Source of the DNA: a virus
Length of the DNA: 27,281 nt
Reading direction: 5' to 3' (one strand)
Virus record (IMG/VR): IMGVR_UViG_3300018083_000103
Location: 1-27,281 of that record
Of the stretch, positions 9,247 through 27,281 are shown piece after piece. The translations under genes and the position numbers were made by a program. The notes under the pieces were generated by a model that was given only the letters and a program-made list of their open reading frames with translations, was not told where the DNA came from and did no database searches. The stretch's first letter is position 1; the number at the start of each line of letters is the position of its first letter.

Positions 9247-10068
9247 CTAGTTCTCCATAATCTCAATGGCGCGCCTGTCCAGGAAGATGGCGGCGGCGTC
9301 TGCACTCAACTCGATACTGTCACCTACTTTGTATTCTTTACTCGGCCCTGAAATCTGCCGTCTTACACGATATGTTGCTACGTCAGGCAAGACGATACCC
9401 TTATGCTGTGGCACGTCGCCACCCTCTATCCTGTGCATGTCGGGCGCGTCGGGGTCAGGCCACAGTACCCCGCCCTCATGGATGATATGGCCGCAGACCA
9501 CGCTTAGGTCATGCGCCATGCGAAAGCCCTTCTCCTTGGCGTCAAGGGCGAATTGCCAATCGTCGGCAAACTTGCGCCGCTTGTCGTCACGGAAGGTGAT
9601 GGCCTCGAGCACGTTCCTACGAATCAACGTACAACCAAAGCCCGCGCCCTCGCTGGGTAGCACCTTGCCCCATGCGGCTTTGGCGGCGTCACGGTCTGCA
9701 TTTAGCGCAACGCCCTTGTAGCCGTCAATGGTGGGGATACAAAGCCATATACGGCTACTGCGTGACACGTATAGACCGCAGGCAATGTCAGCGTCAACAG
9801 CAGCAAGTTTCACCAGCGCATCCGGCGGCACAATCATGTCAGCTTCGATGGTGAGTAGCGCATCGTAGCCACCCGCCAACACGTCGTCACGCATCTTGTT
9901 ATGCTTGATGGTCAGGTTGTCAGGGTGACTCAACTTGGGGTTGTCGTCGCCGTAGTAGGCAACCAATACACCATGCTTGCCATAATCCAGCGCATCCATT
10001 GATGCCCTCGCCGCAGGGTAAACATCTGGCTCAGTTGGATAAGTTGCCACGCCAATCAATATCTTCAT
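9247..10068 (-). CDS. Glycosyltransferase-like protein, GT-A fold
   Basis: This 273-residue protein has the look of a GT-A nucleotide-sugar glycosyltransferase. It has an N-terminal Rossmann-like strand (ILIGVATY) and a metal-binding type acidic motif, EAD at residues 75-77 (LLTIEADMIVP). A later GAGFGCTLIRRNVLE segment resembles the acceptor-side loop of such enzymes. The last 40 residues (YKVGDSIELSADAAAIFLDRRAIEI) form a small separate beta domain like a short KOW/SH3-style module. Its ATG overlaps the stop of the preceding GT2-like gene as ATGA, so the two are likely made together. Its place inside the tail operon suggests virion glycosylation, which is inference. Confidence 0.75.
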   Translation of the reverse strand: MKILIGVATYPTEPDVYPAARASMDALDYGKHGVLVAYYGDDNPKLSHPDNLTIKHNKMRDDVLAGGYDALLTIEADMIVPPDALVKLAAVDADIACGLYVSRSSRIWLCIPTIDGYKGVALNADRDAAKAAWGKVLPSEGAGFGCTLIRRNVLEAITFRDDKRRKFADDWQFALDAKEKGFRMAHDLSVVCGHIIHEGGVLWPDPDAPDMHRIEGGDVPQHKGIVLPDVATYRVRRQISGPSKEYKVGDSIELSADAAAIFLDRRAIEIMEN

Positions 10069-10607
10069 ACGTGTTCTGGTTCTCCCCTGCTAACCCTTTG
10101 GCATTTGCTTGCCACTACATCCAGCCAATACACTTCGTAATCTCGCTCAAAGACGTCGCTGATAAAGTTGAAATCGCTCGAATATGTTCCCGGCGCAAAG
10201 GCGCTGCGATGGCGCATCCATACCGCCCGCTTGACGATAAAGCAACTGACGCACACATGTCCCAACTGCGGCGGCTTTTGCCAGGTGAACTTGTCTGGCA
10301 AGATGTGTCCATCCCTGTCCATCTTCATCATGACCACGTCAGGATTATGGGCGAAAGCAACGTCGTATAAGTCCGCTACCAAATCCTCATAGACACACAG
10401 GTCATCGTCATCAAGCAACCACACGAAGTCCCCGCCCGGCTCATAAGTGGATAGACGCTCATAGGTGGCGGCAATGCCGATGCCCTCGTGGTCAATCATC
10501 ATCGTCTGTGTCCAGTCATGCGACGATTGCCGCTCCAGGCTGGCGCGATTGTGGCGCAACATGGCCGGGCGCTTGTACGTGCGCGTGATGATCTCTAGCA
10601 ATGCCAT
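10065..10607 (-). CDS. Family 2-like glycosyltransferase
   Basis: This 180-residue protein has the N-terminus of GT2 enzymes, EIITRTYKRPAMLRHNRASL, in which the TRT..RP segment marks the nucleotide-binding start. WLLDDDDL at residues 63-70 is the DxD-type metal-binding motif. It is short for the family (commonly 220-300 residues) and may be a minimal catalytic domain. A later FISDVFERDYEVYWLD segment may hold the catalytic base region. Its ATG overlaps the TAA of the tail-terminator gene as TAATG, and it is followed by a second glycosyltransferase. The acceptor is unknown. Confidence 0.8.
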   Translation of the reverse strand: MALLEIITRTYKRPAMLRHNRASLERQSSHDWTQTMMIDHEGIGIAATYERLSTYEPGGDFVWLLDDDDLCVYEDLVADLYDVAFAHNPDVVMMKMDRDGHILPDKFTWQKPPQLGHVCVSCFIVKRAVWMRHRSAFAPGTYSSDFNFISDVFERDYEVYWLDVVASKCQRVSRGEPEHV

Positions 10608-11023
10608 TAGCCATTCCCCGTAATGCTTGCCACGATGTACCAGTATTCCGTCTCACCGATGTAGTCAATCTCGCCGCGTATCGCCCACGACAGCTTGGCT
10701 TGCGAGATAGTATTGGTGGCAGGTACGGCGCGCAAGGTCGTACACAAGGCGTCTATCAAGGTCAAGGCCAACGCCTGGTTGGTCGGTTGCCTACTCTGCC
10801 CAACAGGCGACACCACGATTACCAGTTCGACTGTGCGGTTAGGCCAGCCGCCTTGCCCATCCGCCGTCAGTGGCCCTTCGCTGCCCACAGGTAAGCGCAC
10901 AAACTGGCAAGGCAAGTCTGCTGTGCTGAGTTGGTCGGGTATGTTCGTGTACTTGCGCTTCACCCCCGTGATACTCAGGTTGGCGACGCCACTACTAAAG
11001 GCAGCATAGGTATAGATGGTCAT
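10607..11023 (-). CDS. Tail terminator / tail completion protein
   Basis: This 138-residue protein lies between the head-tail connector and the tail tube module, the usual place of the tail terminator that caps the tube and joins it to the head. Its pattern fits: GWPNRTVELVIVVSPVG gives a central strand pair, followed by LALTLIDALCTTLRAVP as an amphipathic helix, and WYIVASITGNG as the final strand. Function is assigned from position and general fold pattern, without a signature motif. The start overlaps the connector stop as ATGA. Confidence 0.6.
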   Translation of the reverse strand: MTIYTYAAFSSGVANLSITGVKRKYTNIPDQLSTADLPCQFVRLPVGSEGPLTADGQGGWPNRTVELVIVVSPVGQSRQPTNQALALTLIDALCTTLRAVPATNTISQAKLSWAIRGEIDYIGETEYWYIVASITGNG

Positions 11024-11595
11024 ACAAGCCGCCTGTATGGGGCGAGTAGCGCCTTTAGGTCTTTGGGCAGGTCAGCCGGTAACAACATGGCGCTGCTGCC
11101 GATCGCAATCGGTCTGTCCAGGTCGCCTGAATTGTTCTTCTGCCGGTACAGGTACGCCGCGAGCCGCGTGCAAGCCTGTACAATGTCCGCCGGTGCGCTT
11201 GTGCTATATGCCCACTTGCCGACAATCGAAATACTGTTCTCCGGCGTCGTTGTGTACGTCCATGCCACCGTGCTATTGCTCTTGAGCGTCAATGCCCGGT
11301 ACGGCGTGCTATTGCGCGGCTCGGTGATGTAATTGCCGGCTGATACCACGTTGCCGTCACCGTTGGTCACGGAGGTAATCGCCGCAAGAGGCGCATCCAG
11401 ATAGAGCCAACGCCCTGAGGCGTCACGCGTCGGGTCAAAGGTGCGCGTGGTATCACCGCTTGCCTCAAATGTTTGGCGGCAATAACTGTCAATGAAGGCT
11501 TGCGCCGCGGCAATCAACGTACCGAGTAAGGTATCGTCTGTCGTTTCGGTGATGCCTAAGTAGACTTTTAGGTTGGCCGCGCTCACGTATGCCAT
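11020..11595 (-). CDS. Head-tail connector protein, HK97 gp6-like
   Basis: This 191-residue protein begins YVSAANLKVYLGITETTDDTLL and continues with an AAQAFIDSYCRQTF helix. This is the classic N-terminus of gp6/gp15-type connectors, which form a ring below the portal. The middle is an extended beta region (WLYLDAPLAAITSVTNG). The C-terminal helix is IVQACTRLAAYLYRQK, and the protein ends LPKDLKALLAPYRRL, the usual ending of the family. The ribosome-binding site is weak, and the gene starts one base from the stop of the small upstream gene. Confidence 0.85.
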   Translation of the reverse strand: MAYVSAANLKVYLGITETTDDTLLGTLIAAAQAFIDSYCRQTFEASGDTTRTFDPTRDASGRWLYLDAPLAAITSVTNGDGNVVSAGNYITEPRNSTPYRALTLKSNSTVAWTYTTTPENSISIVGKWAYSTSAPADIVQACTRLAAYLYRQKNNSGDLDRPIAIGSSAMLLPADLPKDLKALLAPYRRLV

Positions 11596-11802
11596 TTACT
11601 TTTTCGCCTTTGGACTCCGTAGCATCTTGTCAACCGGCGGCGCTTCTATCGCCTTGACCGCATCTTCGATACGAACAAAGCACCCCGGCGCATCTGCCAT
11701 TAGGAACAAATAGAGTTCGTTGTCAGGCTCAAGCACCTGCCCGACGGGGAAGTGCATCCCACGCCCAATGTACTCGCTGATAACTCTTAGTTTTTGCGCC
11801 AT
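11596..11802 (-). CDS. Small conserved head-module protein
   Basis: This is a 68-residue protein between capsid-region genes and the connector. Residues 1-45 look like a small beta barrel, with YIGRGMHFPVGQVLEPDNELYLFLMADAPGCFV. The tail is basic and Pro/Lys-rich. Short proteins of this style are common between the capsid and connector genes of siphoviruses, but I know no defined role. It overlaps the end of the sugar-methyltransferase gene by 16 bases, and its AGGAG site lies within that gene. Confidence 0.6.
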   Translation of the reverse strand: MAQKLRVISEYIGRGMHFPVGQVLEPDNELYLFLMADAPGCFVRIEDAVKAIEAPPVDKMLRSPKAKK

Positions 11803-13115
11803 AGGTTCTCGCTCTCCTCTATCATGCCAACTGCCTCACACCATGCCTTGAAATAGGCGCTGTTGTCATGGTGCATCGGGTATAGATCCTGTTGCCCAAA
11901 GTTGTTATGAGCAAAGATATGGCCGCCGCTCACGATGGCCGGCTCAAGGTCAGCTAAAAAGGTAGGCAACTCGTCCGGGTGGATATGCTCAATTGTGTCA
12001 ATGGCAACCACAAGGTCAAAGTATTCATCGCCTAATGCCTGCCCAAGCGTGTCGCCCTCTAGCCACTTGACGCGCTCGCCAAGCCGCTTGGTTGCGAAGT
12101 CTTTCAATGCGCCCGGCAACTCGAAGCAGGTTACGTCGTTATGGTCAGCCATCACATCGGCCTCTGTGCCTAAGCCTGTGCCAATCACAAGGACCCTTTG
12201 CCCTGCGATGCCGTACAGCGGCGCTATGATACGGTCATAGAGTGGTTGACAATTCCAGTTCAGCAAGTCATAGAGATAGCCGTTTTGTGCGCTGCCATAG
12301 AAGGCGCGCTCCTGCTCTGCCGTCTGCGGCGGGTTGGCTTGCCACGGCTCACGCACGTTCTTATTGCCATTGATGGACTTGGCGACTACCATGTCAGGCG
12401 TTTCGCCGGTAAAGTCGGCCACCATTCTTGCCAATCTGTCATAGCGCTCAATCAGTGGCAACTGCCCACTCACACGCAAGTAGTCTTGATAACTCTCCCA
12501 CGAGGTTGTCACCTCAGTCACATGGCCTGCCCGTATCGCCGTCGTTGCGCCCAGGCGAAAACCAAGCCCCTGCGCTTCGATACTAAAGATACCGTCCTCA
12601 GACGCCTTGTTGTGGCGCGGGTAATAGAACCAATCGAAGGTATCTGGGTCAGCATCGCCCAGCATCTTCAAGAACACTTCTCTGCGGAATAGACAGCAAT
12701 GCGTGCCTACCATATCCACATCTTCGATTTTGTCCGGGTCAGTGACGAAGCATTCCATCATCTCACCCAGGGCGTTGCGCTTCATCCAAATGGCCCGCGG
12801 CGGCCAACCCCGCCGCGGGTAGAAGGCTTGAAGGATGTCATAAGCAAAGCCCGGTTCGTAGTTCCTAAACTGCTCTACGAAGTCCGATGCTACATCGGCA
12901 TCGCTGTCAAGGGTTAGCAGGGTATCCATGTCGGTCGTAAGGAAGTGGCGCACCACATCGTTCTGTGCTTTGTGCGCCACCATCCCCGCGGCTGAATAGA
13001 GGCCGTCTCCTTTGCGTAAACCGCCGGTGACAAGCTGAGTCCACGCCTGAAAGAAGCGTGGCGTGACCTGTTTCTCCAACCTGGTTGACACCAGGATACG
13101 GCCCCAATCTTTCAC
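11787..13115 (-). CDS. Glycosyltransferase-methyltransferase fusion
   Basis: This 442-residue protein has two enzyme-like domains. Residues 1-230 resemble a GT-A glycosyltransferase, with TLDSDAD at 68-74 as the DxD metal site and VGTHCCLFRREVF at 136-148. Residues 265-442 are a class I SAM-dependent methyltransferase: VLVIGTGLGTEAD at 308-320 is motif I, FELPGA follows as the acidic loop at 331-336, and FDLVVAIDTIEHI at 366-378 is motif IV. FAHNNFG at 401-407 lies in the following strand. The likely reaction is transfer of a sugar and methylation of that or a neighbouring sugar. The start is GTG at 13115-13113 with AGGAGG upstream. It sits between decoration and connector genes. Confidence 0.8.
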   Translation of the reverse strand: MKDWGRILVSTRLEKQVTPRFFQAWTQLVTGGLRKGDGLYSAAGMVAHKAQNDVVRHFLTTDMDTLLTLDSDADVASDFVEQFRNYEPGFAYDILQAFYPRRGWPPRAIWMKRNALGEMMECFVTDPDKIEDVDMVGTHCCLFRREVFLKMLGDADPDTFDWFYYPRHNKASEDGIFSIEAQGLGFRLGATTAIRAGHVTEVTTSWESYQDYLRVSGQLPLIERYDRLARMVADFTGETPDMVVAKSINGNKNVREPWQANPPQTAEQERAFYGSAQNGYLYDLLNWNCQPLYDRIIAPLYGIAGQRVLVIGTGLGTEADVMADHNDVTCFELPGALKDFATKRLGERVKWLEGDTLGQALGDEYFDLVVAIDTIEHIHPDELPTFLADLEPAIVSGGHIFAHNNFGQQDLYPMHHDNSAYFKAWCEAVGMIEESENLWRKN

Positions 13116-24715: not shown

Positions 24716-24924
24716 CGTAACAGCTCCTTTGATTCGATTGTGGCGGTAGGTTCTGCGTCACGCACTTCGACAAGCCGGTAGAAGCGCCCAGGATACTGCG
24801 CCAACGTGCGCCATTCGGGTTCTCCGCACTCGGCAATGTAGCCACAGCACATTTCCACCACGATAGGCCGCGTTGACGTTTCGGTTGGGTAATAGTGATA
24901 GCTGCCGTCAGGGAGTGACTTCAT
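24712..24924 (-). CDS. Small hypothetical protein
   Basis: This 70-residue protein has two Cys in CCGYIAECG and aromatic strands (YHYYP, RFYRLVEV). It has no membrane segment and no known motif. Both ends overlap neighbours by four bases (ATGA), which supports its reality as part of the same operon as the DNA methyltransferase. Confidence 0.6.
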   Translation of the reverse strand: MKSLPDGSYHYYPTETSTRPIVVEMCCGYIAECGEPEWRTLAQYPGRFYRLVEVRDAEPTATIESKELLR

Positions 24925-25607
24925 GCGCCTATCTCCAGTAGCGGCAATTGCATTTGCGCCTCAGCTATGCGTTTCTCTGCGATGGCGAAATAGGTCGGGT
25001 CGATTTCGATGCCGATAAAGTTGCGCCCCGTCTTGACACAGGCGACGCCGGTTGTGCCTGAACCGGCAAAGCAATCCAGTACCGTTCCGCCAGGCCGCAC
25101 CCATTGCGATACCATGTGCTGTACTTGGTCTAGTGGTCGCGGGCACGGATGACCATTAACGTAATTCGACATACCCGGTTGCCGCATTGCCGGATTTGTA
25201 TTCGCCACATGGTAATCACGTGACAATGTGCCTTCGCTCCAAATATCGCCATCTGTCCACCATGCAATCACAGGGTCAAAGGCGTACTGCATTGCGATAG
25301 GTCGCATTTGCACAAAGTTTTTGCAAGCCGCAAAGATTCGATAATTGCGCGGGAACCATTCGCCAAAAAGCCGAACGTTTGGCATTGCCTGCCAAACGAA
25401 CACAGGCGAGCCGGGCTTACAAAGCCGTTCCGCTTCCAGCAATACCGACCATAGCCATTCTCCGTAGCCTTCAGGCGAATCATCGTACGTGGCATACTTA
25501 AAACCAATCCCATACGGCGGGTCAGTCACCACCGCGTCAACGCTGCTATCCGCCATACTCCTCATCACCTCCAGGCAATCGCCCAGATGCAACTGTACGT
25601 TGGTCAT
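24921..25607 (-). CDS. Orphan DNA methyltransferase, N4-cytosine or N6-adenine
   Basis: This 228-residue enzyme transfers a methyl group from SAM to an exocyclic amine in DNA. DPPYGIG at 29-35 is motif IV (catalytic), and DCFAGSGTTG at 178-187 is the SAM-binding motif I. This order, IV before I, marks the beta class. The middle region (80-165), the probable target-recognition part, has a PCPRPLDQV segment typical of such phage enzymes. No restriction enzyme gene is adjacent, so it probably protects phage DNA or marks it for timing. DPPY could go with either base. ATGA overlaps both neighbours. Confidence 0.9.
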   Translation of the reverse strand: MTNVQLHLGDCLEVMRSMADSSVDAVVTDPPYGIGFKYATYDDSPEGYGEWLWSVLLEAERLCKPGSPVFVWQAMPNVRLFGEWFPRNYRIFAACKNFVQMRPIAMQYAFDPVIAWWTDGDIWSEGTLSRDYHVANTNPAMRQPGMSNYVNGHPCPRPLDQVQHMVSQWVRPGGTVLDCFAGSGTTGVACVKTGRNFIGIEIDPTYFAIAEKRIAEAQMQLPLLEIGA

Positions 25608-25939
25608 AGTTCAGTCACCTCCACCACCACTCGTGGGTAGTTCTTGTCGTCATTGCGATAGGCATGTATCTCGGCTATCTGGCTGTCGTTGTGATAGGCA
25701 AGCCCCTGGATAGAGTCCAGCAGCACTTTGATACGGTTATCCAGGTCGCCGCGCTTGGCAGGACGGTAGAAGGTCAGCGACACGCTTACCAAGCCCTCTA
25801 GCGGCTCTATGCCGGAAGTGCGCCACAGAAGATAAACGCTGTCCCTGTAGGCATTTGCTTCTTCGCTGCGATGGGTAACGCCTCGGTTATGGCGATAGTA
25901 GCGATTTGCGGATGGTGGAAAGTCAAGCGTGATTTTCAC
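25604..25939 (-). CDS. rusA: RusA-type Holliday junction resolvase
   Basis: This 111-residue nuclease resolves recombination junctions and branches before packaging. FPPSANRYYRH near the start and RGDLDNRIKVLLDSIQG at 63-79 are the family signature. Asp65, Asp67, Lys71 and Asp85 correspond in spacing to the metal-binding and catalytic residues of E. coli RusA. The length is normal. Its stop overlaps the start of the methyltransferase gene. Confidence 0.92.
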   Translation of the reverse strand: MKITLDFPPSANRYYRHNRGVTHRSEEANAYRDSVYLLWRTSGIEPLEGLVSVSLTFYRPAKRGDLDNRIKVLLDSIQGLAYHNDSQIAEIHAYRNDDKNYPRVVVEVTEL

Positions 25940-26371: not shown

Positions 26372-26580
26372 TTGTCGCCTCCCATGCTGAGTTCCTCGAT
26401 ACGTAGCTCGCGCCCTACGAAAAAACCTCTCTCCCGCGCCGTCAACTGCATGAGCGTCTTGCTGTGCCAGAATGCCGGCAGCCTGTTCGGGTCAGCGTCA
26501 TAACCTTCTTCCAGCCCCGCCGCGTACTCGGCCTTGAGGCGGTCTAGCTCACGTTGAATGTTCGTGTTGACGATTACCAT
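26368..26580 (-). CDS. Small helical hypothetical protein
   Basis: The start is set at 26580, where GGAGGG lies three to four bases before the ATG; an upstream ATG at 26604 lacks such a site. The 70-residue product is helical with charged faces (IQRELDRLKAEYAAGLEEG) and ends in a second helix around ARERGFFVGRELRIEEL. Its start overlaps the end of the cytosine methyltransferase gene by seven bases. Role unknown. Confidence 0.6.
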   Translation of the reverse strand: MVIVNTNIQRELDRLKAEYAAGLEEGYDADPNRLPAFWHSKTLMQLTARERGFFVGRELRIEELSMGGDK

Positions 26581-27281
26581 AAGCCCTCCGTCAGTAGATG
26601 CCATGCTGCTGCTGCCACTGCCGGAACTTGTCCATTGCCAAGGGATTTAAGTCGGTCCACCCTAGAGGCCAGCCCATCAACCACTCGACCCACGCCGGGT
26701 TCAACTTCCCACCATTGCCCTCGGTCGCTACTTGGTCGTTCAGATTGCGGCTGCGCTGCATGTCGTCCCATCTGTGCGCCTCGCCCGTTCGATAATCCCG
26801 TGATTGTGGTGTCGCCATCATCACCGCTGATTCCAGAGAGGGTGACTTTCTCGCCCTCTCTGCCGGACAATCCCCCCGCTGCTTCGCTTTGGGCGTGGGC
26901 CACATGTGAGCGACCGCACTCAGCGATGCCCGACTCTGCCCACCCGCCTTGTTCAGGTGGCGAATCGTTCCGTTGCTTGTCAGGATGGGATTGAATACCG
27001 TTCGGTTGAGCGCGTCTTGCGCCGTTGGTGTGGGCAACAATCCAAAGTCTGTCTCTCTTATGCGGAGCTCCCAACTCAGCTGCCGATAGCACACACCATC
27101 GACAGTCATACCCGCTTTCGGTAAGATCACCGACAACGGTATTGAAATATCCAGTAGCAATAAGCCCTGGAACGTTTTCCAGGAAGCAGTATCGGGGTCG
27201 TACCGCGCGAATGGTGTCGATAGTTGCGGGCCACATATTGCGTGGGTCGTCGGCTCCTGCTCGCTTCCCTGCAACGGAGAA
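26574..27281 (-). CDS. C5-cytosine DNA methyltransferase, N-terminus beyond window
   Basis: This reading frame of 235 codons is open to the right edge, so the gene starts outside the window. It begins FSVAGKRAG, which in this family directly follows the catalytic PCQP, so the active cysteine should lie just beyond the edge. ENVPGL at residues 35-40 of the visible part is motif VI, GAPHKRDRLWIVA at 71-83 is motif VIII with its RxR-type core, and LKSLGNGQVP near the end is motif X. The region between VIII and X, the target-recognition segment, is short and low in complexity. A second long frame covers the same DNA. No restriction partner is visible. Confidence 0.85.
   Translation of the reverse strand, partial: FSVAGKRAGADDPRNMWPATIDTIRAVRPRYCFLENVPGLIATGYFNTVVGDLTESGYDCRWCVLSAAELGAPHKRDRLWIVAHTNGARRAQPNGIQSHPDKQRNDSPPEQGGWAESGIAECGRSHVAHAQSEAAGGLSGREGEKVTLSGISGDDGDTTITGLSNGRGAQMGRHAAQPQSERPSSDRGQWWEVEPGVGRVVDGLASRVDRLKSLGNGQVPAVAAAAWHLLTEGLW
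26591..27281 (-). CDS. Overlapping-frame protein inside methyltransferase gene
   Basis: A second minus-strand frame overlaps the methyltransferase for its whole visible length, open from the right edge to TGA at 26591. A TTG at 27274 is a possible start, but the true start may lie outside. The protein has recurrent LLPTPTAQDA and WPTPKAKQRGDC / MATPQSRDY segments and ends GGKLNPAWVEWLMGWPLGWTDLNPLAM. I remember this layout (YDPDT..W.T.Q, KAGM....CY, LPTP, then LNPxWVEWLMG) from phage and prophage proteins annotated as methyltransferase-like. It may be a true overprinted gene or a frame kept open by the codon pattern of the methyltransferase. Confidence 0.5.
   Translation of the reverse strand, partial: SPLQGSEQEPTTHAICGPQLSTPFARYDPDTASWKTFQGLLLLDISIPLSVILPKAGMTVDGVCYRQLSWELRIRETDFGLLPTPTAQDALNRTVFNPILTSNGTIRHLNKAGGQSRASLSAVAHMWPTPKAKQRGDCPAERARKSPSLESAVMMATPQSRDYRTGEAHRWDDMQRSRNLNDQVATEGNGGKLNPAWVEWLMGWPLGWTDLNPLAMDKFRQWQQQHGIY

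Follow-up and report, generated by a model that had tools for sequence, protein, structure and literature searches.

The window analysed here is the whole of IMG/VR record IMGVR_UViG_3300018083_000103, 27,281 bases long, and at one end it carries two long open reading frames on the same minus-strand DNA (26574–27281). The frames are offset by one base, the second (β) being +1 relative to the first (α). Both were noticed in the first-pass annotation, which read one of them as the C-terminal region of a C5-cytosine methyltransferase with motifs VI, VIII and X; this assignment holds, with α containing FLENV, GAPHKRDR and LGNGQVP and matching Pfam PF00145 (2.6e-20) and phrog_363 (3e-44). The β translation matches phrog_1008 (8.6e-25), a family named 'DNA methyltransferase', as well as short families of unknown function. 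The end of the record truncates the gene at its 5′ end, so motifs I–IV and both starts lie outside the window. In intact relatives α and β are each ~300 residues long, and the window locus is best explained as the last three quarters, on the 3′ side, of a phage gene region that encodes two proteins in overlapping frames. Its features, with the α motifs and the β repeats read from the translations, are as follows.

26574–27281, minus strand: α frame, catalytic part of a C5-cytosine methyltransferase, running from upstream of motif VI through motif X to the stop (235 aa, the 5′ part with motifs I–IV and the start cut off by the contig end)
26591–27280, minus strand: β frame, motif IX and probable target-recognition protein of the phrog_1008 family (229 aa, likewise cut off on its 5′ side)
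27179–27202, minus strand: β conserved N-terminal block, YDPDTASW (W34 almost invariant in the alignment)
27171–27185, minus strand: α motif VI, FLENV
27048–27071, minus strand: α motif VIII, GAPHKRDR
27014–27040, minus strand: first β PTP-type repeat, LLPTPTAQD (α reading VAHTNGAR)
26882–26905, minus strand: second β PTP-type repeat, MWPTPKAK (α reading VAHAQSEA)
26792–26818, minus strand: third β PTP-type repeat, MATPQSRDY
26657–26692, minus strand: β motif IX-like sequence, WVEWLMGWPLGW, beginning 50 nt upstream of motif X
26622–26642, minus strand: α motif X, LGNGQVP, in a region constrained in the α frame in relatives

The second protein had been described as ending in GWTDL, but the β C-terminus in the window translation runs past this point to ...GWTDLNPLAMDKFRQWQQQHGIY. 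Likewise, the suggestion that the DNA encoding motif X also encodes a WVEWLMG...TDL terminus is right in that the frames do overlap there, but WVEWLMG itself is motif IX-like and starts 50 nt upstream of LGNGQVP. This spacing is a property of the family, as WVEWLMG in the β frame lies exactly 50 nt ahead of the α motif X in 103 of the 104 loci measured, and no motif IX was found in the α frame of these 104 loci. The gene belongs with the C5-cytosine methyltransferases by its PF00145 match and by its motifs (VI, VIII and X within the window, I and IV visible only in relatives), while it departs from the monomeric enzymes in having motif IX in the +1 frame and, in relatives, an unconstrained α stretch between VIII and IX.

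Further genes that may act on DNA or on sugars lie elsewhere in the window.

24921–25607 and 25604–25939, minus strand: N6/N4 DNA methyltransferase (PF01555, 8e-28) and RusA resolvase (PF05866, 7e-19), just downstream of the C5 gene
11787–13115, minus strand: protein of 442 residues, its C-terminal part a methyltransferase domain (PF08241), within the structural-gene block
10065–10607, minus strand: frame resembling a glycosyltransferase by eye, within the structural-gene block
9247–10068, minus strand: possible glycosyltransferase-like gene (weak PF13641), within the structural-gene block

With an N6/N4 methyltransferase gene beside the C5 gene, the phage is likely to encode two DNA methyltransferases, and the genes at 9247–13115 are perhaps involved in sugar decoration of the virion.

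Searches with tblastn across 50,697 phage records found β in 105 and α in 1,250, with β relatives in at least 597 candidate stretches of viral contigs and in 12 of 369 gammaproteobacterial genomes. The loci fetched number 440 (certain contigs repeatedly), 36 of them by α alone. Every α-matching locus also has a β match, including those among the 36 fetched by α alone, and β lies at +1 relative to α in 431 loci; three have both in the same frame, and one has β at +2. The remaining five lack a catalytic match: the window itself, two loci (L179 and L180) starting at the edge of a contig, and two end-piece remnants (L190 and L194). The remnants are lone 3′ ends (L190, 2500–2620; L194, 2520–2640) with IX and X in separate frames and the catalytic part absent, and look like deletion products that have retained the IX–X overlap. 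Genomes with only the second protein had been proposed as something to look for, but an intact β without α occurs at none of the loci fetched. The nearest relative of the window, the best among the matches listed, has ~44% identity, and with no close relative available, selection on the window gene is inferred from the family. Phage records are annotated unevenly: both genes are entered for Phanphagia and for Paenibacillus phage Bloom, in the latter as two nested genes each called DNA cytosine methyltransferase, and α only for Acinetobacter phage ABMM1.

In intact relatives the start region is mostly NTGAATGAG, in which α starts from NTG and β from an ATG 4 nt downstream. The second and third α codons overlap this ATG, and their use is opposite to the background: Asn2 is AAT in 167 cases and AAC in one (background 607 and 979), and Glu3 is GAG in 166 and GAA in two (background 808 and 1666), indicating the β ATG and the Ser that follows are kept by selection. 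Both starts lie behind a single ribosome-binding site in most intact relatives, with a spacing of mostly 4–5 nt to the α start and 8–9 nt to the β start. At the other end, the β stop precedes the α stop by a median of 9.5 nt. In certain lineages β opens late, 169–199 nt past the α start; as the N-terminal part is also absent from the fused relative described below, the β N-terminus is probably dispensable.

The two frames are arranged differently in some relatives. In a split layout, found in the actinophage loci L002 and L004 as well as in some loci from bacteria, archaea and viruses (L176, L183, L184, L192, L368, L369, L377 and L420), α stops shortly past motif VIII, and both IX and X are in the β frame. 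L196, from an Actinomycetota genome, has I–VIII, the β blocks, IX and X in that order in one frame of 730 residues, free of any overlap. The split and fused relatives together indicate the β blocks are a genuine protein domain belonging between motifs VIII and X. Two further arrangements were encountered. In L022 (2100–3200) and L047 a shift between IV and VI fuses I–IV to the β frame, leaving α VI–X in another frame, which reflects either genuine variation or an error in sequencing; and in L445 (1189–3087, a gammaproteobacterial genome) a short β of 227 residues has immediately behind it a frame of 405 residues that, by eye, looks like a ParB-like plus N6/N4 methyltransferase protein.

Both frames avoid stop codons well beyond what the other frame's protein imposes. 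When synonymous codons of the window α were shuffled, 4.5 stops were expected in the β frame and none is observed (p=0.0004); shuffling those of β gave an expectation of 5.8 stops in the α frame, where again none occurs (p=0.0005). Across 242 loci the α linker between VIII and IX has no stop against 683 expected, a count that by construction excludes the ~20 loci in which α ends before IX. The β N-terminal stretch, which lies mostly upstream of the region covered by the search query, has two stops against 74 expected in 72 loci. An α linker that is unconstrained in sequence yet stop-free makes it likely that translation runs through the whole of each frame.

Substitutions were counted in 50 disjoint pairs of relatives (68–98.5% nucleotide identity), and dN/dS was calculated region by region with bootstrap intervals, using a simple site count and a fixed transition weight of 2. 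Over codons 1–75 dN/dS is 0.23 for α and 0.89 for β, and from codon 75 to motif VIII it is 0.27 and 0.68, respectively, third α positions varying most in both regions. Between VIII and IX the relationship is inverted, with α at 1.21 (1.08–1.34) and β at 0.34 (0.27–0.41), the latter falling to 0.14 in the motif IX core, before constraint returns to α in motif X (α 0.26, β 0.91). Counting transitions only leaves the contrast between regions unchanged. The switch is equally apparent at the nucleotide level, as change at α positions 1, 2 and 3 between VIII and IX is 0.346, 0.144 and 0.135, position 1 being the β wobble position, compared to the usual 0.179, 0.123 and 0.375 in neighbouring reading frames of the same loci. 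Changes at α position 1 exceed those at position 3 in 46 of 47 pairs between VIII and IX, but in none of 50 pairs between codon 75 and VIII. Since the alignment was made on α residues, which biases against the β result, the β pattern is not an effect of alignment. Mean amino-acid identity follows the same division (α 0.90 and β 0.76 over I–VIII; α 0.59 and β 0.82 over VIII–IX). Constraint therefore alternates along the gene, acting on α over I–VIII and X, and on β over the VIII–X segment including IX.

Both frames are coding and selected, and α and β are probably translated over their full length, judging from the stop-free frames. The first-pass annotation had left three explanations side by side, of which true overprinting is borne out by stop avoidance in both directions and by selection on both frames. 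A widespread annotated family that is nothing but the shifted frame of cytosine methyltransferases is contradicted by the VIII–IX dN/dS values and by the same protein occurring without overlap in L196, and a decayed or frameshifted gene by hundreds of loci in which both frames are stop-free and selected; this is not a decayed locus, and an annotation artefact accounts for neither frame. Free variation of the second frame beside a constrained methyltransferase frame, which had been named as the outcome that would speak against overprinting, is the opposite of the pattern between VIII and IX.

C5 methyltransferases are built from a large domain holding the AdoMet site and motifs I–VIII and X, and a small domain comprising the recognition domain and motif IX. 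Lee, Kam and Shaw reportedly found in 1995 that the small chain of M.EcoHK31I has its coding sequence in an alternate frame within the gene for the large chain, and that both chains are required for activity; here, too, β is encoded in a second frame of the same DNA. The M.EcoHK31I β chain has ~176 residues, while β here covers nearly all of the gene and, in most intact relatives, starts only 4 nt from the α start. Motifs I–VIII and X of M.EcoHK31I are on the larger chain and IX only on the smaller, and fragments of other C5 enzymes are able to complement each other (PMC3404938). The same division is found here, with VI, VIII and X of the window and I and IV of its relatives in α, and IX as WVEWLMGWPLGW only in β, the comparison with M.EcoHK31I (YGGCCR) being one of motif layout. 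A further difference is that the target-recognition domain of M.EcoHK31I has been placed in its larger chain, whereas here the corresponding α stretch is unconstrained and β is constrained. M.EcoHK31I itself was not identified in our plasmid and E. coli searches, which did find related genes.

M.AquI (CYCGRG) also consists of two chains, with the catalytic part on the larger and IX on the smaller, but differs in having X on the smaller chain as well (PMC3404938), while X in the window is on α. The M.AquI layout, with X on β, occurs in split relatives such as L002, L004, L183 and L184. Monomeric C5 methyltransferases of the M.HhaI type share the catalytic motifs and their order, but here IX and the probable recognition domain lie outside the catalytic frame. 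The same two proteins have been recorded as PHROG 1008 and 363, and as overlapping 'DNA methylase' pairs in mycobacteriophages, Streptomyces phages and Paenibacillus phages, each protein being annotated as a DNA methyltransferase, but piecemeal and in many cases for one of the frames only. The papers searched give no account of the two-frame arrangement in phages; the precedent for the layout is M.EcoHK31I, and as far as we found, the phage family that has it is apparently undescribed.

The motif division shared with M.EcoHK31I, together with fragment complementation in other C5 enzymes, makes a heterodimer produced from one mRNA the best reading of the locus. We consider it highly probable that the two frames encode a heterodimeric C5 methyltransferase of M.EcoHK31I layout, with α as the catalytic subunit and β providing motif IX and probably target recognition. 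That the frames are probably two parts of one enzyme is a relationship the first-pass annotation had missed, as it had the precedent of M.EcoHK31I. In such an assembly α and β would be made separately from one mRNA and combine into one C5-cytosine methyltransferase, α contributing the AdoMet/catalytic domain and motif X, and β a small target-recognising domain organised by motif IX, while the α stretch between VIII and X would serve only as a linker. The likely role of the enzyme would be to methylate phage DNA against host restriction. We infer the translation of both chains, their assembly, recognition by β and protection of phage DNA from the pattern of motifs and selection described above.

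The order of the blocks and the presence of motif IX suggest β could form the small domain of a C5 methyltransferase. No relative of β was found in PDB or Pfam, and an AlphaFold model of the window β alone, from 113 sequences, has a pLDDT of 64 and a pTM of 0.28, values too low to support a search by fold. In the model of the L196 fusion, made with alignment rows for the catalytic part only, the catalytic part is confident and the β part is not; mixed α/β alignments on L196 were discarded, as β pieces landed on the catalytic part.

An unlikely alternative is that the active enzyme is a single polypeptide, formed by a +1 ribosomal frameshift downstream of motif VIII that links the catalytic and β parts. 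The order I–VIII, β, IX, X does exist as one chain in L196, and in the split relatives, with X on β, a single +1 shift would yield a complete enzyme. In the window, however, the α frame is in use again for X, 50 nt after IX, which would demand a second shift in the opposite direction, and frameshifting calls for neither an open but unconstrained α linker (0 of 683 expected stops) nor a β frame open from a conserved ATG. It is similarly unlikely that β is instead a separate protein with a role of its own, such as an inhibitor or an anti-restriction protein, and not part of the methyltransferase. Such a role would fit with database entries for β that are partly of 'unknown function', but β holds the motif IX that α lacks, sits between VIII and X in L196 or carries X in the split relatives, and is found intact without α at no fetched locus. 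That a single frame is coding, with the other open by chance or composition, or that the gene is decayed or frameshifted, is scarcely credible given the codon shuffles in both directions, the region-wise switching of substitutions between frames and the conserved internal ATG, even though the codons of some families alone leave shifted frames open and the window gene is truncated at the contig end.

Beyond the heterodimer itself, we lean, if only slightly, towards a fuller account in which the locus represents an old, widespread and near-total gene overlap, translated from a pair of starts that share one ribosome-binding site and lie 4 nt apart, with selection alternating domain by domain, motif X having moved between frames, and specificity residing entirely in β. 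Outside small viruses there are, to our knowledge, few long overlaps on one strand for which selection on both proteins can be demonstrated. Here, the overlap is available in hundreds of natural variants, with a division of labour that is clean and testable. A heterodimer encoded in this way would explain why two database families of 'DNA methyltransferase' exist for the same DNA, and the apparent absence of motif IX from such phage C5 methyltransferases. The single-frame and split relatives offer a route to studying the origin and separation of overlapping genes and, if β sets the target, the family would provide a ready set of exchangeable specificity subunits.
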